DNA of 35,574 bases from a virus. A program made the position numbers and the translations under genes. The notes under the pieces are model-generated. The model had not been told where the DNA came from. It searched no databases and saw only the letters and a list, made by a program, of their open reading frames with translations. Position 1 is the first letter of the stretch. Each line of letters opens with the position of its first letter. Shown here piece by piece: positions 320-35,574 of this stretch. Where the stretch lies: positions 1 through 35,574 of the IMG/VR virus record IMGVR_UViG_3300047562_002752; one strand, 5' to 3'.

Positions 320-1726
320 ATGGCAGTAGAAAACGCAAGACAATTTGAAGTAGAATCTATTCTACTCGTGCCCATTCAAGGGAAGACGCTGGATATTACT
401 CAGCTGGTGTTGGAGTTTAGTATCTATGAAAGTATTAACAATCCATATGTCCTTGGTGAAATTGTTGTAGAAGATACTAGTGTCAACCTATTAGCAAACT
501 TACCAATCCAAGGTAGAGAGACAGTAATCATTAAGGCAAAGACTCCTACGTTTAGCGACACAACATATGAGTATGAGTTGTCTGTATCTGGTATCGATGC
601 TCGTGTTATCTCTGGCAGACAACAGGTTTACAAATTAAACTTAATGAGTTATATTGGGATGGTCAATGAGGGAGTTAGAATTGCTGGTATTTTAAAGGGG
701 ACGGGAGATAAGGTTGTCCAAGACATTCTTACAAATGTTTTGAAGACAGAGAAAACTCTTAGTAGTGAGCCTGCCAAGTTTGAGCAGAAGTGGTTGCCAA
801 GTTTGAAGAGACCATTTGATTTCATTTATCAACTAGCACCTATCACTATCTCTGGACAAGCAAAAGAAAGTATTGGCGGCACGTCAGAAGAAAGAGCAAC
901 GTCTGATGGTGAGGGAGTATCATCTCTCAAGACAGACAATTTACCTAAGATGTCTGGCAGTGCAGGATATGTTTTCTTTGAAACGCATGACGGTTATGTG
1001 TTTAAGTCACTCGACATGCTTGCAGATGATGGTGAGAAGTTTGGTGGTGATAAAGTAAAATATACTTATAACTATGGATATGTAAACACGGAAGGTAAAG
1101 CAGGCACAGAGCATCTAAACATCCTCGACTATACATTCTCAGATGAATTGAATATGCTCAAGCAATTACGCGAGGGATTATATTCAACAATGTGTATTTT
1201 CTTTGATGTCAATAGCATGTATTACGAAGAGAATATCTTCAAGATGACAGATACTTTTGATCAGATGGCACACTTAGGAAGTCAAGATAAAATTCCAGAG
1301 GGTCAGAAGATATTGTCAGAGCATTCAACCAGAGTCATGGCACAAATGATTAATAATGAAATGTTTCATGACACACCAGAGACATCTGGAAAGGATGATG
1401 CAGCATACAAGGACTACAATAGATATGCTATCGCACAATCAAACGCTAGGTATAAACTAGCTTCAAATCAAGAGCTAAATATTACAGTCCCACCTAACCT
1501 AACGATTAGAGCAGGTGATAAGTTGGAATTATTGTTTCCAAATATGACAACTGACGAAGATAGGAAGACAAACCCCTATGATGAAGAGCACAGTGGTAAC
1601 TATCTAATTAAAAATATTGGTTACAATTTTACCATGCGCGGTGCTCAACCAAAGACTGGCACCACTAACATTACTCTCATTAGAGATTCCTTTGGGAGAA
1701 AAAACACAGCTAGTAAGGTAAAGTAA
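320..1726 (+). CDS. Baseplate hub protein, T4 gp27-like
   Basis: A 468-residue protein that I read as the hub ring onto which the gp5-type spike docks. The N-terminal third (residues about 10-110) has the alternating beta pattern of a tail-tube-like hub domain, with ITQLVLEFSIYESI and YVLGEIVVED resembling the first beta-barrel of hub proteins. A C-terminal segment, LTIRAGDKLELLFPN followed by SGNYLIKNIGYNFT, resembles the second tube-like domain of the gp27 family. It is somewhat longer than T4 gp27 (about 390 residues); the extra length is a central Ser/Gly-rich insertion near residues 185-215. Position supports the call: the gp5-like OB-fold and spike genes follow directly. The match to T4 gp27 is architectural, not strong in sequence. 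Confidence 0.72.
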   Translation: MAVENARQFEVESILLVPIQGKTLDITQLVLEFSIYESINNPYVLGEIVVEDTSVNLLANLPIQGRETVIIKAKTPTFSDTTYEYELSVSGIDARVISGRQQVYKLNLMSYIGMVNEGVRIAGILKGTGDKVVQDILTNVLKTEKTLSSEPAKFEQKWLPSLKRPFDFIYQLAPITISGQAKESIGGTSEERATSDGEGVSSLKTDNLPKMSGSAGYVFFETHDGYVFKSLDMLADDGEKFGGDKVKYTYNYGYVNTEGKAGTEHLNILDYTFSDELNMLKQLREGLYSTMCIFFDVNSMYYEENIFKMTDTFDQMAHLGSQDKIPEGQKILSEHSTRVMAQMINNEMFHDTPETSGKDDAAYKDYNRYAIAQSNARYKLASNQELNITVPPNLTIRAGDKLELLFPNMTTDEDRKTNPYDEEHSGNYLIKNIGYNFTMRGAQPKTGTTNITLIRDSFGRKNTASKVK

Positions 1727-1727
1727 A

Positions 1728-1940
1728 ATGGAAAGTATTGAAAAGCATATTGAAGCAGACAAGCAAGAGCTTGAAAACCCTAACATCTCTGCACAACGTC
1801 GTCGCCATATTGAAGGTGAGTTGGAAGAGTTGGAAGCATATCGCGCCAACCATCCAGAAGATCATCATGACCCCACTCCACTTGAGTTGTATTGTGATAG
1901 CAATCCATCAGCACTTGAGTGTAAAGTATATGACGACTGA
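1728..1940 (+). CDS. CP12-like small protein
   Basis: A 70-residue acidic, helical peptide. Its C-terminus, LELYCDSNPSALECKVYDD, is an almost canonical CP12 tail: C56 and C65 are separated by eight residues as in cyanobacterial CP12, followed by the [KR]VYDD end. Upstream, ELEELEAY sits where the CP12 core AWDxVEEL motif lies, in degenerate form. The N-terminal cysteine pair of full-length CP12 is absent. CP12 is an intrinsically disordered redox switch that ties PRK and GAPDH into an inactive complex and so restrains the Calvin cycle; cyanophage cp12 genes are known. The gene starts 2 bp after the hub gene and ends 2 bp before the gp5-like gene, so it is embedded in the virion operon. A structural role cannot be excluded. 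Confidence 0.72.
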   Translation: MESIEKHIEADKQELENPNISAQRRRHIEGELEELEAYRANHPEDHHDPTPLELYCDSNPSALECKVYDD

Positions 1941-1942
1941 CT

Positions 1943-4873
1943 ATGGCATTTGAAAGTTACGGTGTTCGCTCGTCTAACTTTGTAGGTAAAGATGGTTTCC
2001 ACTGGTGGGTGGGACAGATTGAAAAGAAGGACGATAACAATAAAAATTCTAACAGATACAAAGTAAGAATCGTTGGTCACCATCTCGCTGATTGCGAGAG
2101 TCAGGGGACTGATGATTTACCATGGGCGAATACCGTAGCACCTACAACCGAATCATTCTCATCCGCAGGTGGTGCAACAACTAACCTGGAGTGGGGTGAT
2201 TGGGTCATTGGATTCTTTATGGATGCTGAGATGGCTCAGCAACCATTTATTCTTGGTAGTATTGGTGCAGTCAGAAATGCTAGAGGAGAATCTGACTCAG
2301 CAATCTCACAGTTTTTAAATGAAAATTCAGAAGGGTGTAGAGCATTCAAACAGTTTGCTCCTGGTCCAGTAGCAGGCACCCCCTATGTAGTAACACCACT
2401 CAACACAGCAGAGGTCCAAGCAGCTGCAGCGGGTCAGGTAGCACAGGCAGGAGCACCCGCAGGCACAGCAACCAATCCAGAAAAAGGTTTTGGTCAACCA
2501 CCACCAATCGCATACTTGAATTGTCCTGGCAGCGCAATGAATGAAGCTGCTGTCAAATGCACAATCATTTCTCAAGCAAGTTGCCCAACAGGTAAGACGG
2601 CATCGAAGCTTGAGATTGTATTGTCTGAAATGTTTAAGGCAATCTCAGAGTCTGGTGGACAAGTAGGAAGTTATCTTACTAGTAAGACCACAGGATATGT
2701 CCGTGAAGGTGAAGCATTCATCATGGGATATATCAATAAGATTATGGCAATCATCAACCAGAGTTTCTCATGGTTGAAAGGTAAGTTATATAATCTTGTT
2801 AAAGATGGTGTCCAACTACTTATCAATACTCTGCTCAGTTTAATTACTGACAAAGCAAAACCAAAGGATGCCAAACCACCTTACGACCCTAAGAATCCAG
2901 AGAAGATTCTTGATAAAATTCAAAAATTTTTAGAAGATACTCTAGCAAAGATTGGATGTAGTATCGAAGACATTTATGAAAGATTATTAGCATGGATTAC
3001 TGACTTTATTTTTGGTGCCCTTGATGACTTCTGGTCGAATGCTCTCTGTGGTATCGAGACTCTAGTTAATGGATTGCTAAGCGGAATTGAAAGTTTCTTG
3101 AGTGGTGCTATCAATGCTATTGTCGAGCCTTTACTTAGTATCTTAGAAGGTGTTGCAGCACCACTCAATGATATTTTCTCAACTATCTCTGAAATCATGG
3201 ACTTCCTGGGCATCTCTTGCTCTGGTCTTCCCGCTGAGTGTAAAGATGTTATTCAAGATTGTGGAGAAGGACCAAAGACAAAGGCAAAAGGATTGTCGGA
3301 TAAGCTAGATGATTTACTTGCTGCTATTGCTGCAGATACTAAACCATCACCTTCTATTGCTGCTTGTGATGACGCAAAGAGTCCTGTCACACCAGTAACA
3401 AACATTGCAATTACTGGTGGTGTATTTAAACCAACAACTACGGGGACTGCAACTATTTCTCCTATATCTACTGTGACTGCTACTGTTGGCACACCAACAT
3501 TAAGCATACTGATTGACCCGAAATCGGCTACGATTACTACGGGTGGGTCTCATACTTTCACTGTAGTTGCTGCGACATCAGACAACAGTGCTATCAGTTA
3601 TCAGTGGCAGAAATATAATTTCACTACAGCATCTTATGATACTATTGCTGGTGCCACATCAGATAGTCATACAGAAACGGTAGAGGGATTCTATCGTTGT
3701 GTAGTATCTTCCCCCAGCAGTTCAACTATTCCTGTCTCAGTAGACTCTGCAGATGCACAGTTAACAGTTAACCCTGCTCCTGCTGCACCACCTACTATTC
3801 CATCGAGCTATGGATATTCTGGTGGTGTTTCTCTTGGTATATCTTCAACGATTAATACAATCACTAATATCAATGGTTTAAATACTTTCTTTAATGGTAG
3901 TCCATCAGGAAATTCTGCAATACCATCTATCAGTATTGGTGGTAGTGCAAAATCATCATTTACTGCCGCCACGTTTACACCCATTGGGTCTAGTGGTATC
4001 ACATATAGTTTAACCGCTTCTCCAATTCTTGTCAACGCTGGTGGCACAGTTACACTAGAGTTGACTACAACTAATGTCCCTAATGGCACAGTATTAGATT
4101 TCTACATCTTTGCTCCTGAGTTAGCAGTATCAGATTTAATTTCCAAAACTCTATCGCATAAGTTTACAGTATCAAATAACAAAGCAAAGAAGATACTTAC
4201 ATTTGAAAACCCATTGAGTTTCAGCACAAAGATTCTAGTTTTTTCTGCTCTTAAGAATGGTGGTGCTGCTACACAGTTTGCAGTCCAAGGTAACGCACCA
4301 TTCCCTGCTCCAACACCAACACCTGTCACACCAACACCACCCATCGCTTGCAACCCTGTGGTGTCACCAACAGGAAAGGTCATTGACATCGCTATTTGTA
4401 AGCAAGGCAGTCCATATATTCAAGCACCAAAGATTTATATTCAAGGTAATGGTGCAGGGTATGGTGCTTCTGCAGTAGCAGACCTAGATAAAGATGGATT
4501 CCTCAAGAGAATCAGAGTTGTAAGACCTGGCAGAGGTTATCCTCCCAATCCACCAGAGAATCTAGACTGTATCATCTCAGGGTTTACTATTTTGAAACCT
4601 GGATTTGGATATGACCAACCACCAGCAGTATTTGTTGATGGAGACTTGGACGTTGCCGAAGCAGTGATAGAGAATGGTGTATTGATTCGTATTGATGTGA
4701 AGGATAAGGCAAGGACATACACAGAGTATCCTAGCGTAAAAATTATCCCCACATCTAGAGGTGTAGGTGCCATTGCACTCGCTAACGTTGCTTGCCTAGA
4801 TAAGCAAGACGTAAGAGATGTTGCAGAGGTGGTCGGACCAACACCAGTTGGCGAATACATCGACTGTCCGTAG
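1943..4873 (+). CDS. Baseplate hub OB-fold protein, T4 gp5-like, with Ig-like domain and GxGY repeats
   Basis: A 976-residue central spike-complex component. Residues about 18-112 match the gp5 OB-fold: the WWVGQIE start, RYKVRIVG, the DDLPWANTV segment, then GDWVIGFFMD and PFILGSIG, the order seen in T4 gp5. No lysozyme domain follows. Residues about 220-430 are a hydrophobic helical region with scattered cysteines, preceded by an Ala/Gly/Pro linker. Residues about 518-610 form an Ig-like domain (TFTVVAATS, SYQWQKY, GFYRCVVSS, AQLTVNP). Residues about 860-960 hold GxGY-type repeats (GAGYG, GRGYP, GFGYD) common in cyanophage tail proteins. The beta-helix that T4 carries at the gp5 C-terminus is in the next gene. 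The OB assignment is firm; the other domains are read from motifs. Confidence 0.82.
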   Translation: MAFESYGVRSSNFVGKDGFHWWVGQIEKKDDNNKNSNRYKVRIVGHHLADCESQGTDDLPWANTVAPTTESFSSAGGATTNLEWGDWVIGFFMDAEMAQQPFILGSIGAVRNARGESDSAISQFLNENSEGCRAFKQFAPGPVAGTPYVVTPLNTAEVQAAAAGQVAQAGAPAGTATNPEKGFGQPPPIAYLNCPGSAMNEAAVKCTIISQASCPTGKTASKLEIVLSEMFKAISESGGQVGSYLTSKTTGYVREGEAFIMGYINKIMAIINQSFSWLKGKLYNLVKDGVQLLINTLLSLITDKAKPKDAKPPYDPKNPEKILDKIQKFLEDTLAKIGCSIEDIYERLLAWITDFIFGALDDFWSNALCGIETLVNGLLSGIESFLSGAINAIVEPLLSILEGVAAPLNDIFSTISEIMDFLGISCSGLPAECKDVIQDCGEGPKTKAKGLSDKLDDLLAAIAADTKPSPSIAACDDAKSPVTPVTNIAITGGVFKPTTTGTATISPISTVTATVGTPTLSILIDPKSATITTGGSHTFTVVAATSDNSAISYQWQKYNFTTASYDTIAGATSDSHTETVEGFYRCVVSSPSSSTIPVSVDSADAQLTVNPAPAAPPTIPSSYGYSGGVSLGISSTINTITNINGLNTFFNGSPSGNSAIPSISIGGSAKSSFTAATFTPIGSSGITYSLTASPILVNAGGTVTLELTTTNVPNGTVLDFYIFAPELAVSDLISKTLSHKFTVSNNKAKKILTFENPLSFSTKILVFSALKNGGAATQFAVQGNAPFPAPTPTPVTPTPPIACNPVVSPTGKVIDIAICKQGSPYIQAPKIYIQGNGAGYGASAVADLDKDGFLKRIRVVRPGRGYPPNPPENLDCIISGFTILKPGFGYDQPPAVFVDGDLDVAEAVIENGVLIRIDVKDKARTYTEYPSVKIIPTSRGVGAIALANVACLDKQDVRDVAEVVGPTPVGEYIDCP

Positions 4874-6586: not shown

Positions 6587-6615
6587 TTGACAGGGGGTCC
6601 TGGCGGCAGTATAAT
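6587..6615 (+). promoter_or_regulatory. Consensus sigma70-type promoter P1
   Basis: TTGACA at 6587-6592 and TATAAT at 6610-6615 with exactly 17 bp between them, a perfect host-type promoter in the only long intergenic stretch of this part of the window. Transcription would start near 6622 and run into the small gene at 6719 and on to the tRNAs. Host RNA polymerase should read it without phage factors, which suggests early expression. Confidence 0.8.
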
Positions 6616-6664
6616 AACGATGTGCTCGGTTGAAGGGACGAGTCTTTTGAGTCTCATTAGAGGC

Positions 6665-6693
6665 TTGACAAGTCCCCCTCTGGGTGCTATTAT
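6665..6693 (+). promoter_or_regulatory. Second sigma70-type promoter P2, tandem to P1
   Basis: TTGACA at 6665-6670 and TATTAT at 6688-6693, again with a 17-bp spacer, 78 bp downstream of P1. The predicted start near 6700 leaves a leader of about 20 nt before the ATG at 6719. The sequence between P1 and P2 shows no convincing gene. Confidence 0.7.
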
Positions 6694-6718
6694 ACATACA
6701 TTCAAACAGACACACACC

Positions 6719-6946
6719 ATGCTTGATTACGGTAATGACGGACAAATCAAAGAAGTTGAGTCCGATGATGTACAAGAAGTTATTGATGATATTCTAGAAT
6801 TGTTTGAAAATCGTATGACACAACTTGAGGCAGAAGACCGCTACCGTGATATTCTTGCTATTTGTCAAGAATTTCATGAATGGGGAGTTGCTGAAGATGG
6901 TGATGAAATTGGTTACTTGTTTATGCCACGTTTAGCAGATGATTGA
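6719..6946 (+). CDS. Small acidic hypothetical protein
   Basis: A 75-residue, strongly acidic protein with a predicted helical middle (VQEVIDDILELFENRMTQLEAEDRYRDIL). The frame is open further upstream to 6581, but a start there would lie across both promoters; the ATG at 6719, about 20 nt after the expected P2 start, is the sensible choice. The stop overlaps the next gene by 8 bp. No family was recognised. The acidity and early-type promoters would fit a small host-interaction protein, but that is inference. Confidence 0.65.
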   Translation: MLDYGNDGQIKEVESDDVQEVIDDILELFENRMTQLEAEDRYRDILAICQEFHEWGVAEDGDEIGYLFMPRLADD

Positions 6947-7121
6947 CAGTAACACAAAAATCCTTGACATTATTACTGTTGACCTGTATAATAAAAAGGT
7001 AATCTTGAGAGGAGAAGACCAATCAGTGATTACCTTTAGATGCTGCTCTATCAATGAATTAATAGAATTGATAGAGCAGTGTAAAAAGATGTTAAAAACT
7101 GACAACGTTAGAGTTAGATAA
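6939..7121 (+). CDS. Small hypothetical protein overlapping the previous gene
   Basis: A 60-residue protein with a beta-strand-rich first half (ILDIITVDLYNKKVILRG) and a helical second half (INELIELIEQCKKML). The ATG overlaps the end of the preceding gene by 8 bp, which favours coupled translation. Its first 50 bp also contain a perfect promoter (see 6964-6992), so coding and regulatory roles may coexist. It stops 1 bp before the first tRNA. Function unknown. Confidence 0.55.
   Translation: MIDSNTKILDIITVDLYNKKVILRGEDQSVITFRCCSINELIELIEQCKKMLKTDNVRVR
6964..6992 (+). promoter_or_regulatory. Internal consensus promoter upstream of the tRNA cluster
   Basis: TTGACA at 6964-6969 and TATAAT at 6987-6992 with a 17-bp spacer, inside the small gene that starts at 6939. 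It lies about 130 bp before the first tRNA and points at it, so it may drive the tRNAs and downstream genes independently of P1/P2. Chance occurrence inside AT-rich coding sequence is possible, but the match to both boxes and the spacing is exact. Confidence 0.55.
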
Positions 7122-7122
7122 T

Positions 7123-7194
7123 GGGACTGTCGCCTATTGGTTAAGGCCCACTGCTTATAACGGTGTGAATCGGGTTCAATTCCCGACAGTCCTA
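7123..7194 (+). tRNA. tRNA-Ile(UAU)
   Basis: A full cloverleaf of 72 nt. The acceptor GGGACTG pairs with CAGTCCT (one G-U), the D-stem is GCCT/AGGC, the anticodon stem is CACTG/CGGTG (one G-U), the anticodon loop is CTTATAA and the T-stem is TCGGG/CCCGA with loop TTCAATT. The anticodon at 7156-7158 is TAT, which decodes AUA isoleucine. No CCA end is encoded. UAU anticodons are rare in bacteria, which usually read AUA with a modified CAU tRNA. Confidence 0.85.
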
Positions 7195-7198
7195 CCTT

Positions 7199-7270
7199 GG
7201 GAGATTAGCTCAGTGGTAGAGCAACGTGCTGATAACGCGGAGGTCGCTAGTTCAAATCTAGCATTTCCCA
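7199..7270 (+). tRNA. tRNA-Ile(GAU)
   Basis: A cloverleaf of 72 nt, 4 bp after the previous tRNA. The acceptor GGGAGAT pairs with ATTTCCC (one G-U), the D-stem is GCTC/GAGC, the anticodon loop is CTGATAA and the T-stem is GCTAG/CTAGC. The anticodon GAT at 7231-7233 reads AUC/AUU. The outer pair of the anticodon stem is an A-G mismatch (7224/7240), otherwise the fold is normal and resembles bacterial tRNA-Ile(GAU) around the anticodon. No encoded CCA. Confidence 0.88.
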
Positions 7271-7274
7271 CCTT

Positions 7275-7359
7275 GGGAGCATGGTGGAATCGGTAGACAC
7301 ACCAGACTTAAAATCTGTTGGGCATTACGCCCGTGGGAGTTCAAGTCTCCCTGCTCCTA
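7275..7359 (+). tRNA. tRNA-Leu(UAA)
   Basis: A class II tRNA of 85 nt with a long variable arm (a TTGGGC...GCCCG hairpin). The acceptor GGGAGCA pairs with TGCTCCT and the T-stem is GGGAG/CTCCC. The anticodon loop CTTAAAA gives TAA, reading UUA leucine, a codon favoured in AT-rich phage genes. It starts 4 bp after tRNA-Ile(GAU); the three were probably processed from one transcript. Confidence 0.9.
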
Positions 7360-7360
7360 T

Positions 7361-7385
7361 TTCCACTAAATATAAAGTAGTGGAA
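7361..7385 (+). repeat. Perfect 8-bp inverted repeat between tRNA-Leu and the next gene
   Basis: TTCCACTA (7361-7368) and TAGTGGAA (7378-7385) flank a 9-nt loop, immediately after tRNA-Leu and 5 bp before the ATG at 7391. No T-tract follows, so it is not an intrinsic terminator. It could guide tRNA 3' processing or fold around the translation start of the next gene. Confidence 0.5.
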
Positions 7386-7390
7386 ATGTT

Positions 7391-7657
7391 ATGAAATACA
7401 CATTATCACAATCTTACTGTTTCTATATGGGACAGGTCGTGCGAATGTATTTCATTCAGGGATTGCCGTATACATTTGATGAATTACCTCAAATTGTGCA
7501 AGACCACCCTGCGATACAAACTGAAGCATTAAGTCAACGTGATTATGATGACGAAGATTTGTATCAAATTAGCAACTACCTTATTATGGAAGAAATGCAT
7601 CCTTTGATGTTTTCCATAGAAGTAGAGAATCCCGAATTACTGCCTATTGATGATTGA
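7391..7657 (+). CDS. Hypothetical protein between tRNAs and bilin reductase
   Basis: An 88-residue acidic protein. The first half contains hydrophobic and aromatic residues (YCFYMGQVVRMYFIQGLPYTF) and the second half is Asp/Glu-rich, ending LLPIDD. The ATG lies 5 bp after a perfect hairpin. The stop is 9 bp before the bilin reductase start, with GAGGA between them serving as that gene's ribosome site. The pair is therefore probably one transcription unit. No family was recognised. Confidence 0.65.
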   Translation: MKYTLSQSYCFYMGQVVRMYFIQGLPYTFDELPQIVQDHPAIQTEALSQRDYDDEDLYQISNYLIMEEMHPLMFSIEVENPELLPIDD

Positions 7658-7666
7658 GGACAATAT

Positions 7667-8314
7667 ATGTTTTGGGGTAAATACCATGATTTATTATTCA
7701 AGTATATTGACTTGAAACAAACATATAATACTTCTCATAGTCATAAGGATATTCGTATGGATTCCTTTCTACTTGAAGGAGAGTATGTTAAAAAGGCAAG
7801 AGTCACTGACATTAGTCATGGTGTGACTGCCATATATAATAACATCATCTATCCAAAAACAGGCAGCAACCTGCCCTGCCTGGGAATGGATTTGATGGCG
7901 TTTTTTGAGAAAAAAGTTATTCTTACATTCGATTTCCAGCACCCTAAACCTTATTATGATTTTGACAATGAAATTGTGAGGGAATGTATGGGCGAATATG
8001 CTGGCAATACCAAAGAAATTCGTTTCTTTGAGCCAGGTAATCATTTTTCTCGTTATGTGTTTGTGCGTAAGTGTCATATGGACGAAGTTGAGCAATATTT
8101 GCCTGATTTCGAGAAATATGTAAGCACTTACGCCAAACTACTAGAAGCAGCAAAACCAACTGGTGATGATGTAACAGAATTTGGCAATTTTGACAAATAT
8201 ATGTTAGAATTAGACCCAGTGACAGGTTATATGCAATCCAATTTTGGTAAAGAATTTGGTGAAAAATATACTCATGAATTCTTATTTGAATATGCAAATT
8301 TAGCAGATAACTAA
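7667..8314 (+). CDS. pebS: Ferredoxin-dependent bilin reductase, PebS/PcyX type
   Basis: A 215-residue member of the ferredoxin-dependent bilin reductase family. Phage PebS reduces biliverdin IXa to phycoerythrobilin with electrons from host ferredoxin; the related phage enzyme PcyX makes phycocyanobilin. Diagnostic stretches are IYPKTGSNLPCLGMDLM, FDFQHP, EIRFFEPGNHFSRYVFVR and the C-terminal YMLELDPVTGYM, closely resembling phage P-SSM2 PebS. The two catalytic aspartates of PebS correspond to D75 (GMDLM) and D183 (ELDPV). The N-terminus is shorter than in P-SSM2 PebS (about 233 residues). GAGGA lies 8 bp before the ATG. The biliverdin-producing heme oxygenase is not in this window. The family is certain; whether it makes PEB or PCB cannot be settled by eye. 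Confidence 0.88.
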   Translation: MFWGKYHDLLFKYIDLKQTYNTSHSHKDIRMDSFLLEGEYVKKARVTDISHGVTAIYNNIIYPKTGSNLPCLGMDLMAFFEKKVILTFDFQHPKPYYDFDNEIVRECMGEYAGNTKEIRFFEPGNHFSRYVFVRKCHMDEVEQYLPDFEKYVSTYAKLLEAAKPTGDDVTEFGNFDKYMLELDPVTGYMQSNFGKEFGEKYTHEFLFEYANLADN

Positions 8315-8320
8315 TTTTGC

Positions 8321-8392
8321 GCCCCTGTAGCTCAGTGGTAGAGCAGCGGTTTTGTAAACCGCTGGTCGCAAGTTCAAATCTTGTCGGGGGCT
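8321..8392 (+). tRNA. tRNA-Thr(UGU)
   Basis: A cloverleaf of 72 nt starting 6 bp after the bilin reductase stop. The acceptor GCCCCTG pairs with CGGGGGC, the D-stem is GCTC/GAGC, the anticodon stem GCGGT/ACCGC is perfect, the anticodon loop TTTGTAA gives TGT (reads ACA) and the T-stem is GCAAG/CTTGT. No CCA is encoded. Confidence 0.92.
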
Positions 8393-8394
8393 TA

Positions 8395-8402
8395 CATAAA
8401 TA
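8395..8402 (+). promoter_or_regulatory. Possible T4-type late promoter (CATAAATA)
   Basis: CATAAATA matches the NATAAATA late motif reported for T4-like cyanophages. It begins 3 bp after tRNA-Thr and lies 25 bp before the start chosen for the next small gene. An 8-bp motif in AT-rich DNA can occur by chance; the placement in a gene boundary is the support. Confidence 0.4.
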
Positions 8403-8426
8403 CAGAGTAATATTGCTGTACCATCC

Positions 8427-8639
8427 GTGACAGAGCGGAGAACGTTTTTTGTTGAGACTAGAAACGACTGGAATCCCTGCATTTATCAAATGTTAAAATA
8501 CATCGATAAATTGCAAGAGTATTACATTCGCACAGGGGATTATTTTTACGAAGAGCAATCAGAAAAGATAAGAAAATTGATTAAAGAGCATAAAAAACAT
8601 ATTCACGAAATCGAAGGATTTGACGGTCCACCATTTTAA
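8427..8639 (+). CDS. Small hypothetical protein after tRNA-Thr
   Basis: A 70-residue protein with a predicted helical body (YIDKLQEYYIRTGDYFYEEQ, then KIRKLIKEHKKHIHEI). The start is GTG at 8427, giving an N-terminus VTERRTFFVETRNDWNPCIYQ that looks conserved; an ATG at 8490 would leave only 49 residues. A late-type motif lies just upstream, and a host-type promoter spans its last codons. Function unknown. Confidence 0.6.
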   Translation: MTERRTFFVETRNDWNPCIYQMLKYIDKLQEYYIRTGDYFYEEQSEKIRKLIKEHKKHIHEIEGFDGPPF

Positions 8640-8648
8640 TGCTATAAT
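8620..8648 (+). promoter_or_regulatory. Near-consensus sigma70-type promoter directly before a terminator
   Basis: TTGACG at 8620-8625 and TATAAT at 8643-8648 are spaced by 17 bp and overlap the stop of the small gene at 8427-8639. Transcription from near 8655 would meet the terminator at 8674-8704 after about 20 nt of leader. This suggests either a roughly 50-nt RNA or an attenuated leader. Confidence 0.6.
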
Positions 8649-8654
8649 ATGTTA

Positions 8655-8704
8655 TCCGTGTGAAGGAAGTCGTAAAAACCTCAGGTTTCCCCTGGGGTTT
8701 TTTC
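8655..8704 (+). ncRNA. Candidate ~50-nt small RNA between promoter and terminator
   Basis: A deduced transcript only: a promoter at 8620-8648 fires into a terminator whose U-tract ends near 8703, leaving about 50 nt made of a 20-nt leader with GAAGGAAG and the terminator hairpin. No RNA family was recognised. It may be a real small RNA or a leader with conditional read-through into the giant structural gene. Confidence 0.3.
8674..8704 (+). terminator. Strong intrinsic terminator
   Basis: An 11-bp stem pairs AAAACCTCAGG (8675-8685) with CCTGGGGTTTT (8691-8701), with one G-U pair, a 5-nt loop and a run of T. It closes the tRNA/pigment island before the late structural operon. Confidence 0.85.
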
Positions 8705-8705
8705 T

Positions 8706-8713
8706 TATAAATA
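8706..8713 (+). promoter_or_regulatory. T4-type late promoter (TATAAATA)
   Basis: An exact TATAAATA, the T4 late promoter consensus read by the phage sigma factor gp55, lies immediately after the terminator and 45 bp before the ATG of the giant structural gene. It would start the fibre operon from 8759 onward. Confidence 0.72.
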
Positions 8714-8758: not shown

Positions 8759-11700
8759 ATGCCATTAACTAAGTTAGAGAATCTAATTTCCAGTAAAACT
8801 GGAAGATATCTATATGTTTCGCCTGATGATTTCAATGCTTCCGATGCATTAGACAACAGAGGTAATTCGCCAACGAGACCCTTTCTCACAATTCAGAGAG
8901 CATTCCTAGAGGTTGCTAGGTATTCGTATGTTCCTGGTCAAGAAAATGACAGATTTGACCAGTTTACGATTATGTTGTCGCCAGGTAATCACTATATTGA
9001 TAACCGTCCTGGTATTTTAAATCCTGAGGAAATTGTTCCATTTGCTTTCAATCAAGCAACACAGGAGTGGGAAGATGAGTCTATTGTTGATCTCAGTAAT
9101 CCTAATAACATTCTTTACAAGTTTAATGGTCCTAATGGCGGTGCCACTATTCCCCGTGGCACCTCGCTGGTGGGTATGGACCTTCGTAGGACTCGTCTAC
9201 ACCCTCTGTATGTACCTGACCCTGCTGATTCTAGTGTTGGCAGAACGACACTCTTTAATGTTACGGGCGGTTGCTACTTCTGGCAATTTACTATTCTAGA
9301 TGGTGATGTAGAGCCTAATTCACCTCTTTATGATGCACAGGAAGGAATTGGTAAAGTTTATTCTCAACCAAATTCAACTCTTACAACAATTCCTTATTAT
9401 TCTCACCACAAAATTTGCAACTTTGAGTTTGCTGACAGAGATGACCTAGGTCTACTCTACAGAAAGATTGCTCGTGCATTCTCACAATTCCAACCAACTA
9501 TTGATGATCCAGGCGAATTCGAGCAGAGACCACAAGAAAACAGAATCGTTGGTCCTCTTCAAGACGCTATTCGTATCGATTCTATTGAAGTTAATAACGT
9601 TGCTGGCACAACTGCACTCGATGTTACTGTTAAGACCAAAACCAATCATGGTTACTATGTTGGTCAAGCAGTTGCAATGGCAAACCTACGCTCTACATTA
9701 CCTGCAGGTGCATCTGAGCCTATTCCTCTGTCCAATGACCCTCTAACTGGTGTATTCTCTGTTAGAGAAATTAGCATCACTGACCCTAAAGAGTTTACTT
9801 ATCGTGTTATCGGTAAGAACGCAGCTGCGGTTGGTCTTGGCGATAAGATTGGCACTCCTATTTCACCACCAGACCTTGATACAAACGCTATCACACAGGC
9901 AGAAATCGACTCGGTAGAATCTGCTTCACCATACGTCTTCAACGTTTCTATTCGCTCTACATGGGGTATTTGCGGCATCCACGCTGATGGTAGCAAGGCG
10001 ACTGGTTTCAAGTCGATGGTTATCGCACAGTATACTGGTGTTTCTCTACAGAGAGACGACCGTGCGTTTATTCGTTATGATGAATTCTCTAATACTTGGA
10101 ATCAAGCACCTCTAACTGATGCATTTGCTACGACACCTTATCACGCTAAAGGTGATGCATATTGGAAGGATGACTGGAGAAACTTCCACGTTAAAGCATC
10201 TAACGATGCATTTATTCAAAACGTTTCGATTTTCGCTGTTGGTTTCGCTGATCACTTCCTGATGGAGTCAGGTGGTGACATGTCCATCACCAACTCTAAC
10301 TCTAACTTTGGTAACACTTCTCTACACGCTATTGGTTATAAGGGATATGCATTCTCCCAAGACCAAGGTGGTTACATTTCACACATTGTTCCACCAAGAA
10401 AGGTTACCACTACAACTAAAAAATATCAATACTTCACATTTGACCAGACCAAGATTAGAGGTAGCAGCGCATTAGACACAAGTCTTGGTGCTTACAATCT
10501 TGTTAGATTGTATCTTGCTAATGATGAAGCATCTGATCCATTGCAGAAACCTGCAACTACTGTTAATGGATATCGTTTAGGTGCTCAATCCCACGATAAA
10601 ATTTATGTAAAACTTGACCCTGCAACTGGTTTTACTGGGTCTATTCGTGAAGCAGAGATTGCTCCTGCAGGTTATAGAAAATGGGAAGTTGCTCTTTCTA
10701 TTCTTTCTCCATCTTCCAATAATGCGGTCATTTCAAATAATGACCAAGATGCAGCAAATTTAATTGACCTCAACAGAGACTTTATTGCTGCTGAGACATA
10801 TGGTTATATTACTCGTAAGTATCCATATCTTCTCACACGCACCAGCATTACTATTGGCAAGTGCCGTCGTGACGTAGGTTATATTTTAGAAGCAGTTGCT
10901 AATGACCTTCGTGTTGGTGGTAATGTCAATAGCGTCCAAGCAGGTCAAGCATACTACACTGGTAATAATCTAGACTTTATTGATGGTGAGAAAGAAGAGA
11001 CTCTAGATGCATTCAACTATGCTAGAAGTCTTGCAGTTGCAGCAATGCGTAACTGGGAATTCCGTATTGAAAATTGTAGCACTTTCTTAAATAATGATGT
11101 TGTAACTATTCCTTCTGGTATTACTACAATTGGTATTGTTGAGGGTATGGAAGTTACAGCAACTCCTGTTGCTGGTCAAAATAACCCAATTCCTGCTGGC
11201 ACATATGTCAAGGAAATCATCAGCACAACTCAAATTAGACTTGGTAATGCTGCCGATACAGACACAGTAAACGCTACTGCAACGATTACTGCTACTGGTC
11301 CTGCTGCTGGCGGCATCACTCTCAATTTTGAATTAAAGTCATCTAAATTTGCTAGCTCTTCTGGTAGAGCATTTGATGCTGGCACTCTAATTACTCTTAA
11401 TAAGGACTTTATTGCTGAAGAAGCACTTATTCTTGCTAAGCAGTGGGACCCTACTACAGCTGTTCCCGATGAAACTAAGTGTAAGCGCGATATTGGTCTT
11501 ATTCTTGATGCTCTTGTTGGCGACCTCAGGACATTTGGTAATGCTGGCATGGTGGAAGCAGCAGAATCATATGTTGGTGCCCCTTCTCGTTACTTTGATG
11601 CTAAGAATCTTATTCTTGCAAACAGAAGAGAGATTATTGATAAAGCAGCAGCAAAACTTGCTATTGAGTATCCTGATTTCTACTATGGTGGCAGTGGATT

Positions 11701-14700
11701 TACCAATGGTGGTGATGACCAGACTAACGTATATTCAAGATATAAGGATTCTTATCGTCTAATTCAGCAGAATAAGAGACATATTCAAGACTATGCTACT
11801 GCTGAAGTTGCAATTGCATTTCCAGATTTTTATTTCCCAGGTGACCAACAGACAGACAATGGGTCTAGATTTGCAGATTCGTATCGTTTAATTAAGCAAA
11901 ATAAGACAGAAATTGTCCAAGCAGCATATGATGAAATTGTTTTACAGCATCCTGGTTTTGTAAATCCAGATACTGCCAAGTGTCTTCGTGACTTAGGCAT
12001 TTTTGTTGATTCTGTAGCTCTTGATTTATTCCAAGGTGGTAATAGATACACCAGACTATTTACTTTAGAATATTTTAGTGGTGTTGGCGCTGGGTCTCTG
12101 ACAGGTGAAGAAGCGGAAACAAATACTGCTCTTAATAAAGCAGGTGATATGATGAAAAAAGCTGTCACTAACCAATTGACAGTAAAAGACCTTACAATCA
12201 CTGCTGACCCTGCAACTAATAGCAATACAAGTCCATTATCTTGCTCCAATGTCCGTACAACAATTGATAACTTAGTAGGTATTCCTGTTGCAAGTATTAC
12301 TGCTGGTAATACCAACTCACTTCCAAATGAGTCTGTTGGAAGCATTATTACCGCAGGTGAAGAGAAGTGTAAGCGTGACATTGGTTACTTTGTTGATGCA
12401 ATTTCAACAGACCTCACAACACTTGGTAACTCTTACTCTATTGATTTCATTCGTCAATACTTTACTGATGGTAAAGTCAACGGCAAAATTTTAACCTTTA
12501 CTAATACTGCTGGCACAACTCTTCTCAATAGAGCAAATAGAGTTTATAATGGTGTCACTACTACAACTAATGGTAGCGGCGTAGGTGCTACATTCCGTGT
12601 AACTAGAGATTCTGCTGGTGCTATTGATTCGGTTACTATTCTTGAAGGTGGATATGGTTATGCCGCTGGCAATCTTGTTACTATTCCAGGAAGTAAAATT
12701 GGTGGTGTTGATATCGCTAATGATGTAGTGGTTACTGTTTCTACAGTAGAGACTGCATGGATTACCGCAGGTCTACAGGGTGAAGAGCAGCAATCAATTA
12801 CTGCATATACAGCAGCGGTTGATGCAATGAAACTTGCTATTACCAACCAGTTGTTTGTGAAGGACCTTACTCTTACTGGAGACCCATTACCTGGCAACGC
12901 TGGTTCTGGTCTTAGCGTATTTGGCACTCCTGGTGTCACTACAAACAATCAGGATACACAATCCTGCTCTAATGTCCAGGCAACATTAGACACTCTATCT
13001 GAGATTATCTTTGGTAGAATTCGCCAGGGTGATATGGTTACTGGCACAGCAACCAACCCTGCACTCCCCGAGATTAATTATGGTAGCGCACCAATCAACC
13101 AAGAGAAGTGCAAGCGTGATATCGGATTTATTGTTGATGCCATTGCAGAAGACCTAGCATTAGGTGGCAACTATAATATTAAGCAGGCAACTCTGTCATA
13201 TTTTGATAGCACTGGCAATACTCTTATCAACAATGGTCTTGCTGGCGAGCTCGCCCAGTCTGTTACTGCATTTGAAGAAGCAAGACAACTTTGCTTTAAG
13301 GCAGTTACTAATCAACTCAACATCAGAGACTTTGATATCTCTGAGGGTCCTGCTGAATTAGGTGTCGCTGGCCCAAATATTCCAAATGATAATCCCAATT
13401 CTTGCTTGGATGTAAGAAATACTATTGATACTCTCTTTAGTATTCTTCTAGACAAGTTACAAAATGGTGCAGCGATTCTTCCTGCAACCAATTATAATGC
13501 TGGTGCTGAGTCACTTGCTGGCGAATTGAATATCAGTGTATATGCATTTAAGAAGGTTAGAGACCTTGCAATTCTTGCAATGCGTAACTGGAGGACTGGT
13601 GATGGCACACCTTCAGACCCATTGTATGTCAAGGAAGCAACCAATCCTCTAGATATTCAAGTAGATGCTACTATTGATACTACAACTGCTGGTATTCCAG
13701 CATGTGCAGACGTAGCATATACTATTGCTACTGAGTTTGATATTCTCATTGAAGCACTTGAAAATACTGGTCCTCTACCTCCAAGAAATACTGGCAGTGA
13801 TGAGTATGTTGCTAAAACTGCACCAGAAAGAGATGATAGCATTACTGTTGATACAAGCAATAATAAGTGTGCTAGCACAAAGGATGCAATCATCGAGAAG
13901 ATGCGTGTTATTGACAGCATCATTCGTAATGGTGTAGATGCAGAGCCTCTTGTTTCTCAGTTAGTTAATACTTCCAACTTTGCAACCAGAGCAACATTAT
14001 TCAGAGTTGCTGGCAGTAATCCACACAACCTAGAAACTGGCACACCAGTAAAACTTGTCCCTGTTGCTAAAAATGCAAATGTAGACAAGCGTCTTATCAG
14101 ATTACCTAAGGGATTTGACACTAATACTAAGTATTATGTCATTGCTCCTGGTAAGATTACTCAACCAGAAGATTATTCATCTGGTGGTGCTACTGCACAG
14201 TTTAATGATTCCCAGACTTTCATGCTTGCAACTAGCATCGAGAATGCTACTGCGGGTAACTACATCTATTCGTCCGAGACAACTTCAATTGACCCAGATA
14301 TTCAGATTGAAGTCCATCAGTATCTAACTGATGTTAACTATGACCTACATCGTTATACTTGCTCACTAGTCAGCTCCAGAGTATTTGAGACTACAACTAA
14401 CCACGTTTTTGATACTGCTATCAGCGGCGTACAAGTCCAGCAAGTCTTCTTCTACCCACTAGAGGAAAACCTAGTCAATGGTGAGGCAGTTGGTGCTGCT
14501 CTAGACACTCTACCAACTAAGACTTCTGGTACTAGATTAGAGATTAATAGACCATACTATGTTGGACGCCCAGCAACTTACACTAAGAATAATGAATTCT
14601 CGCTATATCTTACTGTCCAAAATGCTATTGACAAGCAAAATGCTGTCCAGTTTAATTACCCAAGCGGCCAGTCATTCCATGTCTTTGCAACTAAGAAGAG

Positions 14701-17700
14701 AAGTCCTCTTGGTTACGATCCAGCACAATCATGCTGGTATATTAAATCTCTTGCTTCTGGTAATGAGATTTATGAAAGAATCACAATGTCTGATGCATCG
14801 AGAGGAAGTCTATATGTCAATAAGCCACCTCGCACTCCAGACTCATTCTTCTATAGAGCGGATGATACTAGAGAGAAAGAGGATAAGACATATAAACTAC
14901 GTTATGTGATTCCTAACTACCGTGATGATGTCAGAGACCCACTTGAAGGTTTCGCAATTAGAATCAGGACTGACGAAAAGAGAAAACTTCTACCACAGAA
15001 GCTACTCCTCAAGCCTGTCGCTGCTGGCGTCCAGAAGGATGCTACATTCTTTGAAGAAGGTCCATCACCAAAAGAAAGACTTGGTGTATCTGCTGCTCTA
15101 ACTGAGTATGACCCATATAATCCTACGTTTGCAAAGCGTATTGAGGGCACTAAGACAGAATCTAACGTATCATTTACCATCCAATCTGCTAAAATTAATG
15201 CTGATGGATATCTAGAGATGACGGTCTTCGACCATGGTCTAGACCTAGAATCACTCAAGGCAGAAAGATTTGTTACTGTTAAAGTTGCTCAACCTCAAGG
15301 TGGCAATGGTGATTTTGTTGAGGGTGCTACTGTTACATGGTATGGTGAGTATACTGGTAGTGCAGTTGTCCACTCTTGGTTTGGCAATGAGAATGTCGAA
15401 GGCGGATTAGAAGAGTTTAATTATCTAATTCTTAAGGCAGTCCAAGGTGAATTAGACTTTGATACAAGCACACAGACATTCATCAGACAAACTATTGCAG
15501 GTCAAGCAGACGTTACTGCTGAAGTCCTAGATAGACCCAACTTCGGTAAAGAAGATAAGAAGGAATATCTATATGGTGTTGAGGCAGCAAACGTCTACAC
15601 AATGACCCCTGGTGATGTTATCACTGATGATGCTGCTAGACAGTATAGAGTTGTTAGCGTAGAAGATGTCTCCGACCTAACTGAAACATACTATATCTAC
15701 AGTATCGAAGAGATTCAGAGAAGAATTCCACGTCAGCAAGATGGTGTTTACTATCTAACAGTTGTCCGTGGTGATATTTCACCTCTACCTCTTGGTTCTG
15801 GTATTGGCACAAACTTCAGAAAATTCAAGTTTAGTCAGCCTGTATCTAGACTCTATCCTCTCACCTATAAGAATGACCCACTACTATTCCAGTATGATGG
15901 TAGTGATGAGCAGGGTGGTAATCAAGATGCTACACTTCTAGACCCACCAGCAGCAGTTTGTGCCGCTGACAACTATATTCACGGTCTAGTAACAATCAAC
16001 GATGCCAAAAATTCTGCTACTAAGGAGGCAATTCTAGACTTTATTCAGAATCCTGGGTCTGGTGAGTATACTTACACTGGTGCAAATGCTATTAAGGCAC
16101 AAACTGGTGCAGCATCATCTGGTGCAGAAGAGAGACTCATTCCAATCGCAGGTGACTCTGCATTCCCACTAGAGCAAAAACTCTTTGTTGAATTACGTCG
16201 TCCATCTATTGCTCGTGCTGGTAACCACACGTTTGAGTATCTAGGTTTCGGTCCTGGTAACTATTCAACTGGTTTCCCTGCAAGACAGACAGTTATTCTA
16301 ACTGATGTCCAAGACTACTATGCACAATCCAAGCGTCAAGATGCGGGTATCGTATTCTATACTGGTATTAACTCTAACGGTGAATTGTATATTGGTAATC
16401 GTAAGATTAATGCTATTACAGGTGAAGAAGAATTCTTAGACGCATTAATTTTAGAAGAGGAAGATGGTGAAGATGGTGAATTCGGAAGTTTAGTTACGGT
16501 CTTTGAAGACCCCGTAACATTTGAAAATATCATCACTCTTAATGCTCCTCCAAATTTAACCAACTTCTTTAACTCACCAGTCATTGTCAACGTTGATCCT
16601 GAGTTTGAAGCGAAGATGACTCCTCCTTCACTCAGAATTGTATCACGTCCTGGTGATAGACAAGGTGTGCTTCCTGGTGATGATGACCCACGTCTAGACA
16701 CAACAGCATCTGGTGATATTATTATTGACAAGAATAGAGTCAGAGCTGCTATCTTTGATCTCAATCCAAGAGGTACACAGAGATATACAGTTAGGTCTGG
16801 TATTGATAATACCGCGCCAAACCAGGCAACGTCTGGCACTAAGGCAAGATTTTCTTCTTCTCAATCTATTAGTTTTGGATCTGCTGTTCCATTATCGGGC
16901 GACATCCTGTTTAAAGGTGGTGAAGTAGGTTACACTGGATCTCTTGGTTGGATTTATGCTAACTCTTACGTCCCATACACTTTGGGTGCTGCCCCTGGCA
17001 ATGAGTCATCAATTGATATTACTGGCATTGAATTCTTCCCCAACCTCAATGTTATTAAACTCATTTTCCAGGTTGGTAAAGTTAATTTCAGTGCTTCTAA
17101 CCCAGGCGCTTCCTTGGGAATCACACTCACGAGTCAGATTAAGATTACTGGTGGTGAAGGCGATAGACTTTCTACAATTAATGGTGTCCACACAGTTTAT
17201 AATAATGCCGCTGAAGGTTATGAGTATCTAGAGTCTAACAGCTATGTTTACTTGTTAACGGAAAGAGCATCTGAAGCAGCATTAACTGGCAATCCTCCAT
17301 ATCTAGCAAACACCGCTCCTGGTGCTCAACCAAATCTAGAAATTTCTCTTGGTGCATCTCAGTGGAAAGAAGTTGGTGTTGTTGGTGCTGAAGCACTACG
17401 CACAGAAACTGAAGTTTATGGTGACTATAAGTTAGGTATTAACACTGTTGCAAGAGCAGTATCAACTGATTATGAAAATGGATTTAATTCGACTGCAACT
17501 TATCCAAGAGCAAACTTAGATCTTGTTGGTAATGCATTTATAAGTGGTAGGAAGCAAACTACTTTATCTGATGGTAGCGGTGGGTCACCTACAGCAACAA
17601 ATTATGCACTTCTCGTTGGTGGTGCTAGCGATAATCCAGATTCAACTGCTGAGTTTAGAATTGCCACAACTACACTAGCTCAAGCAGGCAGGACTGAAGG

Positions 17701-34367: not shown

Positions 34368-34522
34368 CTTACGAAGTGCAAACATGGGATGACACACACA
34401 AGTGTGTTCGCTATCATAGCGTAGTAGATGCTATTGATTATGAAGATGCCCGTGACTTTATTCGAGGTATGCATCCAGAGCAAAAAGTACTCGCTGTTGT
34501 GAAACGCCATGAAAGAATTTGA
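34364..34522 (+). CDS. 52-aa hypothetical protein
   Basis: GTG start overlapping the previous stop (GTGA). The product VTYEVQTWDDTHKCVRYHS then VVDAIDYEDARDFIRGMHP and QKVLAVVKRHERI has an alternating strand-helix-strand pattern suggestive of a tiny alpha/beta domain. It overlaps the DUF4385 gene by 14 bp. Confidence 0.5.
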   Translation: MTYEVQTWDDTHKCVRYHSVVDAIDYEDARDFIRGMHPEQKVLAVVKRHERI

Positions 34523-34970
34523 TTATGGACTTGATTACAAAGATCTGGATTTTACAGAATCCAACAATCGAAGAAAGTATCGTATTGGCAGAGGGGAGCA
34601 GGGAGTCCTTCTTGTCCGCCCTTATACTGACGATATTTGCAAGCATTGGAGATTTGTAGATGAGGATACGGCTCGCAAATCTTCTGCTACGATATACAAG
34701 ATGTTCTGTAATTATCGAGAGCGAAAAGATTTCATTGGTATGGACATGGCGAGGAAATTCCTTGAGATGGGATTTACTCGTGCGAGGCGATACGCAAACC
34801 ATAGTAGTGGTAGAAAATACGGTAAGAATCGTGAAATTCTCCCACAATGCGAGGATTGGAAAACAAACGAAAAAGCAAAAGCAGCACAGGTCTTCAAAGA
34901 AGTGAGAGACCTTGCTGCTTATGATGCTATATACCAGCAAATGCGTAAGCAATGGAGAAAGAGTGAATGA
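34509..34970 (+). CDS. DUF4385 family protein
   Basis: A 153-residue protein with the hallmarks I know from the DUF4385 family of cyanophages and bacteria: FDYGLDYKDLDF at the start, YRIGRGEQGVLLVRPY, HWRF, the segment DFIGMDMARKFLEMGFTRA and RRYANHSSGRKY. Length matches the family. The function of the family is not established. Its strongly basic helical second half would suit nucleic acid or an acidic partner. The stop overlaps the halogenase-like gene (ATGA). Confidence 0.82.
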   Translation: MKEFDYGLDYKDLDFTESNNRRKYRIGRGEQGVLLVRPYTDDICKHWRFVDEDTARKSSATIYKMFCNYRERKDFIGMDMARKFLEMGFTRARRYANHSSGRKYGKNREILPQCEDWKTNEKAKAAQVFKEVRDLAAYDAIYQQMRKQWRKSE

Positions 34971-35574
34971 AGAAAAGAATTGCAGTTATTGGAAAAGGAA
35001 CTGCTGGAGCACAATCTGTAATTCATTATCTTCGACATATGGACAATTGTGAAGTGCATTGGTATTTTGATGAAAAAATACCAACACAAGCAGTTGGAGA
35101 AGGATCTACATTAACTCTGCCAAGGAATCTTTTTGAAAATATTAATTTGAATTATTTGAATCTTGATAAAATTGATGCTACATTAAAAACGGGAATTTAT
35201 AAATCTGGTTGGGGAAAATCAGGAAAAGAATTTCTTCATTCATTTCCACCTCCCGCAGTTGGTCTCCATTTTAATGCAATATCTCTTCAAAATTATATCT
35301 TTGAAGAAGTTAAAGATTTGGTGACAATACATAATGAAAGCATAAATTCTTTTGATGTTGATGCTGATTATATAATGGATTGTTCTGGTAAACCAGAATC
35401 ATATGAAGACTATGATCAAGCACAGTATATACCAGTAAATTCTGCTTATGTCACCCAATGTTATTGGGATTATCCTAGATTTAATTACAGTTTAACCATT
35501 GCTAGACCATATGGATGGGTTTTTGGCATACCATTGCAAAACAGATGTTCCATTGGTTACTTGTTTAATTCTTC
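34967..35574 (+). CDS. Flavin-dependent tryptophan-halogenase-like protein (3' truncated by window end)
   Basis: The gene runs off the window; 202 residues are visible. The N-terminus has a dinucleotide-binding start (IAVIGKGTAGAQ, residues 5-16). It is followed by AVGEGSTLTLP (42-52), matching the VGEATxP motif of flavin-dependent halogenases. TLKTGIYKSGW places a lysine, K74, where the catalytic Lys of PrnA (K79) falls. The later motif GWVFGIPLQNR (residues 183-193) corresponds to WxWxIP, with Phe replacing the second Trp. The motif comes much earlier than in PrnA, so this is a compact variant. FADH2 from a host reductase would be needed. Many phage members have unknown substrates; activity is not shown by sequence. 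Confidence 0.78.
   Translation, partial: MKKRIAVIGKGTAGAQSVIHYLRHMDNCEVHWYFDEKIPTQAVGEGSTLTLPRNLFENINLNYLNLDKIDATLKTGIYKSGWGKSGKEFLHSFPPPAVGLHFNAISLQNYIFEEVKDLVTIHNESINSFDVDADYIMDCSGKPESYEDYDQAQYIPVNSAYVTQCYWDYPRFNYSLTIARPYGWVFGIPLQNRCSIGYLFNS

Follow-up and report, generated by a model that had tools for sequence, protein, structure and literature searches.

A CP12 gene packed between gp27-like and gp5-like baseplate hub genes in a viral genome fragment, and the promoter pattern of its cyanophage relatives

The stretch of DNA analysed here (IMG/VR record IMGVR_UViG_3300047562_002752, positions 1 to 35,574; 35,574 nucleotides in all, hereafter the window) comes from a virus infecting marine cyanobacteria and carries a gene for a 70-aa CP12 homologue, cp12 (1728..1940, + strand), between two genes of the baseplate hub. 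The upstream gene (320..1726, +) encodes a gp27-like tail/baseplate hub protein of the T4-GC15 type, matching the tail protein family phrog_350 with E=1.6e-99. The downstream gene (1943..4873, +) encodes a gp5-like baseplate hub subunit and tail lysozyme, matching phrog_1922 with E=6e-145; a Gp5_OB match of the same product (E=1.5e-4) lay under the cut-off of Pfam. These family matches bear out the gene order gp27-like/cp12/gp5 given in the first-pass annotation of this DNA. That annotation had also placed 2-bp gaps on both sides of cp12, which holds for cp12 and gp5 (2 bases), but not for the gp27-like gene and cp12, where the gap is 1 base. A weak Shine-Dalgarno-like site, TAAGGT (1714..1719, +), is present within the end of the gp27-like gene.

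Translation of the ORF 1728-1940 (+) gave the 70-aa product MESIEKHIEADKQELENPNISAQRRRHIEGELEELEAYRANHPEDHHDPTPLELYCDSNPSALECKVYDD, which matched Pfam PF02672 with E=7.3e-14 and 52.7 bits (curated cut-off 22.7 bits), residues 3-69 being aligned onto profile positions 4-70 of 70. The product also matched phrog_627 (E=1.8e-32). Using tblastn, it matched 379 phage records, nearly all of them cyanophage and several annotated as CP12 or carbon metabolic regulator, and all 42 viral relatives in the alignment individually matched PF02672. When a profile of the viral relatives was searched against the PDB, CP12 chains only were retrieved, the alignment with T. elongatus CP12 running over the full length. 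The AlphaFold2 model (mean pLDDT 93.4) comprised helices at residues 4-15, 22-41 and 51-58, and its top PDB fold match was 6gfo_F, CP12 complexed with cyanobacterial GAPDH (E 0.026, probability 0.95, TM-score 0.42); with a TM-score of only 0.42, this predicted likeness is supportive and not decisive by itself. When pooled over close cp12 pairs, dN/dS was 0.15 (N part) and 0.10 (C tail), and both halves of cp12 are under purifying selection. Lack of a CP12 profile match, or conservation confined to the part unrelated to CP12, had been named beforehand as grounds for dropping the CP12 assignment. The profile match was above the cut-off over nearly the full domain, and conservation spanned the CP12-defining tail as well as the helical part, which answers that test in favour of CP12. 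The data confirmed that the ORF 1728-1940 is a genuine gene encoding a true CP12, and as judged from the sequence comparisons its resemblance to CP12 is not due to chance.

C56 and C65, flanking P60, are the only cysteines of the product, whose last residues are KVYDD. The C-x8-C pattern followed by KVYDD, the absence of an N-terminal pair (there being no further cysteine) and a degenerate core devoid of the AWD motif were as originally described. The C-terminal loop CDSNPSALECKVYDD (1893..1937, +) corresponds to the GAPDH-binding part of characterised CP12s; it retains the cysteine pair CxxxPxxxxC and the YDD end, and can be aligned with 3zdf_C and 3b1j_C, two CP12 peptides whose structures were solved together with GAPDH. 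Column conservation was computed over 66 distinct phage CP12 proteins. The CxxxPxxxxC loop with its central P was found in 66 of 66, while neither the N-terminal cysteine pair nor the AWD tryptophan was found in any of the 66. The codons for RRRHIEGELEEL (1797..1832, +) form the counterpart of the canonical AWD_VEEL core, as seen from column conservation and the alignment with T. elongatus CP12; here the core is replaced by IEGELEEL, with the EEL end alone retained. Among the phages, core columns R25, R26, H27, E31, L32 and L35 were nearly invariant, with no W, and the residues invariant in all 66 were H7, I8, D11, L15, R26, H27, E31, L32, L35, Y38, D48, P49, E53 and E64. The AWD_VEEL core is dispensable for CP12 membership, as cyanobacterial CP12 classes without it exist (PMC3906501). 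The N-terminal cysteine pair is not required either, because the CP12 of S. elongatus PCC7942 also lacks it and still forms the ternary complex (PMC9406205).

Most of the viral contigs found have the gp27-like gene just 5' of cp12 and gp5 on its 3' side, directly or after a few genes. The same slot was present in the annotated isolates S-RSM4, Syn9, S-RIM4, S-WAM2, S-SZBM1, S-CAM9, Sf-CH5, P-RSM1, S-SSM6b, ACG-2014d, P-SSM7, S-SM1 and S-SSM5. Its cargo in relatives often includes cpeT, pcyA, 2OG oxygenase genes and tRNAs, and in the window cp12 is the sole cargo; going by gene content, the slot is a cargo site used by many cyanomyoviruses for metabolic genes and tRNAs. Elsewhere in the genome, cp12 was located in at least 7 phages (P-HM1, P-HM2, S-TIM66, P-TIM68, S-SKS1, S-SRM01 and RB11-B), preceding talC in the psbA region in P-HM1 and P-HM2, and it was absent in S-PM2. 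Variable positions of cp12, near gp5 included, were reported by Sullivan et al. 2010 (PMC3037559). Each of the 12 phage records searched had one CP12 copy; a second CP12, which would free the window copy for another role, was found neither in these 12 nor in the window record. On a single contig (L052:627-3392), the loss of 155 bases, comprising the gp5 start and about 48 residues, left cp12 joined in frame to a truncated gp5, the relative L054 being intact; this is either a deletion or an assembly error. The cp12 genes of Syn9, S-RIM4, Sf-CH5 and many others (L088:8001-8213, L089:8001-8213, L095:4001-4228) are labelled merely gp17 or hypothetical protein, and annotation-based surveys therefore undercount phage cp12. 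A scan of genome contigs for CP12 returned no cyanobacterium; apart from one chance match, it gave cyanophage contigs that had been binned into other MAGs. Two of these cyanophage CP12 contigs (L084, L085) sit in MAGs under the names Euryarchaeota and Rhodopirellula, probably as phage contamination.

The late-promoter motif NATAAATA was described for S-PM2 and is found in all cyanophage genomes (PMC2984593). We searched 60 bases upstream of cp12 in 73 distinct gp27-like/cp12 junctions, with dinucleotide shuffles as control. The motif was present within -38 to -24 of the cp12 ATG in 27 of the 73 junctions (shuffles: mean 0.8, maximum 4), at -27 to -37 in those 27, and at no other position of the 60 bases in any of the 73. 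Of the 60 junctions left when the set was thinned at 70% identity, 24 carried it as compared to 0.6 in shuffles. Its distance was nearly fixed with respect to the cp12 ATG (sd 2.0) and variable with respect to the gp27 stop (sd 22.5), which assigns the motif to cp12 and shows that it does not simply come along with the stop codon. As an internal control, gp5 genes following closely had the late motif in 0 of 36 cases, and those following after a longer gap in 10 of 21. Seven junctions had the late motif, and nine more the shorter core TAAATA, ahead of a cp12-gp5 pair with at most 12 bases in between; there, the late unit of gp5 would thus begin with cp12. Among the 26 packed junctions, in which cp12 follows the gp27-like gene after less than 20 bases, 25 were without even the TAAATA core. 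Similarly, no NATAAATA was present within 200 bases upstream of the window cp12, and no promoter motif was found between the genes. Having no promoter of its own, cp12 of the packed group must depend on transcription from upstream; the start of the operon and the upstream promoter lie beyond the window. The window cp12 therefore probably rides on the hub-gene transcript.

Sigma-70-like matches before cp12 in relatives were 3-fold over those in the gp27 body. In the long-gap phages S-SM1, S-SSM5 and S-H25, the gap held a sigma-70-like match as well as the late motif. Before cp12 of P-HM1 and P-HM2 these two kinds of motif overlapped; a dual start would fit the expression of P-HM2 cp12, which belongs to the middle genes and reaches a high level in light (PMC5082946). 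For the packed loci, a sigma-70-like promoter ahead of cp12 was considered and rejected: TTGACA lies inside the gp27-like gene, read as xTT GAC Axx and at the same codon position wherever the frame was worked out. The packed-locus matches are probably explained by coding sequence, the long gaps of S-SM1, S-SSM5 and S-H25 excepted. The match nearest to the window cp12 on the + strand was 9/12 at 1265-1293. From this motif pattern, which is no measurement of transcript starts, we infer that the window cp12 is expressed late and linked to the hub. The late timing proposed in the first-pass annotation is plausible and indirectly supported by the promoter anatomy in relatives and the lack of an own promoter in the window, although the P-HM2 gene, beside talC, is a middle one.

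The sole exact copy of the late-promoter motif in the window, TATAAATA (8706..8713, +), is located 46 bases before a giant tail-fibre gene at 8759. With one mismatch allowed, 60 copies of TATAAATA were found over the whole window against 68 expected, which is chance level, and hence only the positional test across relatives was used. The region 6587-8713 holds a bilin reductase gene (7667-8314; Fe_bilin_red E=2e-18) and a cluster of tRNA genes (Ile-TAT, Ile-GAT, Leu, Thr), lying among strong sigma-70-type matches, two of which, at 6587 and 6964, are perfect (12/12). These genes are followed by the exact TATAAATA at 8706, and by these motifs the region marks a sharp switch from late-type to host-type candidate promoters beside the hub genes. 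The 3947-aa tail-fibre protein (8759-20602) showed a match to the Phycobilisome domain PF00502 at about 11855-12076 (E=9e-10, in a 350-aa piece scanned), with repeated CKRDIG/CLRDLG motifs and no PDB sequence match at E 0.1; it could be a real borrowed fold or a chance resemblance. Near its end (34509-35572), the window has the gene for a DUF4385 protein and the first part of one for a tryptophan halogenase.

We consider it quite likely that the gene encodes a phage CP12 carried in the gp27-like/gp5 cargo slot, which inhibits the Calvin cycle and is transcribed with the hub genes, mainly late. Going by its family, the protein would insert its oxidised C-terminal disulphide loop and its YDD tail into the active site of GAPDH, with the predicted helical hairpin helping to hold PRK. 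With GAPDH and PRK held, carbon fixation would use less NADPH and ATP, and carbon would be diverted to the pentose phosphate pathway, from which phage nucleotides would be made. Packed at 1 and 2 bases from its neighbours without a promoter of its own, cp12 would be transcribed along with the hub genes, mostly late. Phage cp12 is known to be expressed during infection, and inhibition of the Calvin cycle has been proposed (PMC5082946). S-RSM4, which has cp12 in the same slot, halts host carbon fixation about 2 h before S-PM2, which has no cp12, as cited in PMC10665884; S-RSM4 also has other carbon genes, so that the faster shutdown is not specific to cp12.

The extent of PRK binding and the time of expression may differ from this proposal. 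The AWD motif is replaced across the phage family (by IEG here), and PRK binding may accordingly be weak or lost. A product which inhibits GAPDH only, firm PRK capture having been lost with the N-terminal cysteines and the AWD core, would explain why the C-terminal loop and YDD tail are conserved when the N-terminal pair and the tryptophan are missing in all 66 proteins. We hold this to be possible but doubtful, for ten of the invariant residues (H7 to Y38) lie in the N-terminal half, which is also under purifying selection and is predicted as a confident hairpin, and the ternary complex formed by the S. elongatus PCC7942 protein without the pair (PMC9406205) points the same way. It is similarly a tentative possibility that CP12 is made at middle time, by read-through or from a hidden promoter inside the gp27-like gene, as suggested by the middle cluster to which P-HM2 cp12 belongs (PMC5082946) and by the occurrence of both motif types before cp12 in P-HM1, P-HM2, S-SM1, S-SSM5 and S-H25. 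The gene of P-HM2, the closest relative with measured expression, however, sits in a different genome place, the window has neither a gap nor a strong sigma-70-like match near cp12 (the 9/12 match at 1265-1293 being the nearest on the + strand), and TTGACA in the other packed loci is probably coding sequence.

The position of cp12 and its likely translational coupling with two hub genes, together with the contig in which it is fused to gp5, would be in keeping with a CP12 which also forms part of the baseplate or virion, or which is packaged for injection. We regard such a role as very improbable. The fusion, a deletion or assembly error, is confined to one contig and costs gp5 about 48 residues, and baseplate-wide conservation was not seen: cp12 is missing from S-PM2 and relocated in the at least 7 phages listed above. 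By its distribution, cp12 is mobile between genome places, unlike a structural gene. The published list of S-SZBM1 virion proteins includes S-SZBM1_65 (536 aa), identified from its length and gene order as the gp27-like neighbour, and CP12 (S-SZBM1_64 by inferred numbering) is absent from it, a weak negative from one relative. In S-SM1 virions gp5 and the gp27-like T4-GC15 were found, and the article text, as far as accessible, does not name CP12 among the virion proteins (PMC3037559). The second role as a baseplate protein raised in the first-pass annotation is thus not supported, the product being CP12 in sequence and predicted fold throughout. It is equally far-fetched that CP12 of the packed lineage, made strictly with the hub, leaves in the virion and shuts the Calvin cycle of the next host at entry.

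The window cp12, read as a Calvin cycle inhibitor transcribed with the hub genes, adds a further copy of an auxiliary metabolic gene that was known before, as was the slot. Its novelty falls away since cyanophage CP12 without N-terminal cysteines and its place near gp5 are already published (PMC3037559, PMC3906501). The promoter pattern across relatives is a useful addition, no statement of it having been found in the accessible literature. In the packed subgroup (the window, Sf-CH5 and many contigs), cp12 seems, from gene spacing and motifs, to be tied to the hub genes. CP12 is thought to be among the main tools of cyanophages for turning off carbon fixation in the commonest photosynthesisers of the ocean. 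If cp12 of many phages is under late or hub control, the published picture of a middle gene serving nucleotide synthesis, derived from P-HM2, would not be group-wide, and some other reason, e.g. ATP saved for virion assembly, would have to be sought for carbon fixation being shut down late.

A plasmid search found no CP12 on plasmids. Cyanobacterial and plant CP12 (6gfo, 3b1j, 2lj9) share with the window protein the CxxxPxxxxC loop, the YDD/YDN end and an aligned helical region. The N-terminal cysteine pair and AWD_VEEL core of canonical CP12 are absent in the window and all phage copies, and are partly absent in some cyanobacterial CP12 classes as well (PMC3906501). The CP12 of P-HM1 and P-HM2, for the latter of which expression was measured (middle cluster; PMC5082946), belongs to the same family, but unlike in the window, cp12 of these phages is paired with talC in the psbA region and has sigma-70-like and late motifs that overlap. 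The CP12 of S-RSM4, S-WAM2, Syn9, S-SM1 and S-SSM5 (T4-GC337; phrog_627) has the same family, cysteine pattern and gp27-like/gp5 slot. These phages have gaps of 21-97 bases with the late motif or a one-mismatch relative of it, whereas the window has gaps of 1 and 2 bases and none; the slot of Syn9, S-SM1 and S-SSM5 also holds cpeT, tRNA or other cargo, unlike that of the window. The isolate Sf-CH5 (PV340852, cp12 annotated as hypothetical protein) is packed like the window, with 1-base overlaps on both sides, and its CP12 of 75 aa, with an EIEAGDHHD-type insert, shows 56% identity to the window protein.
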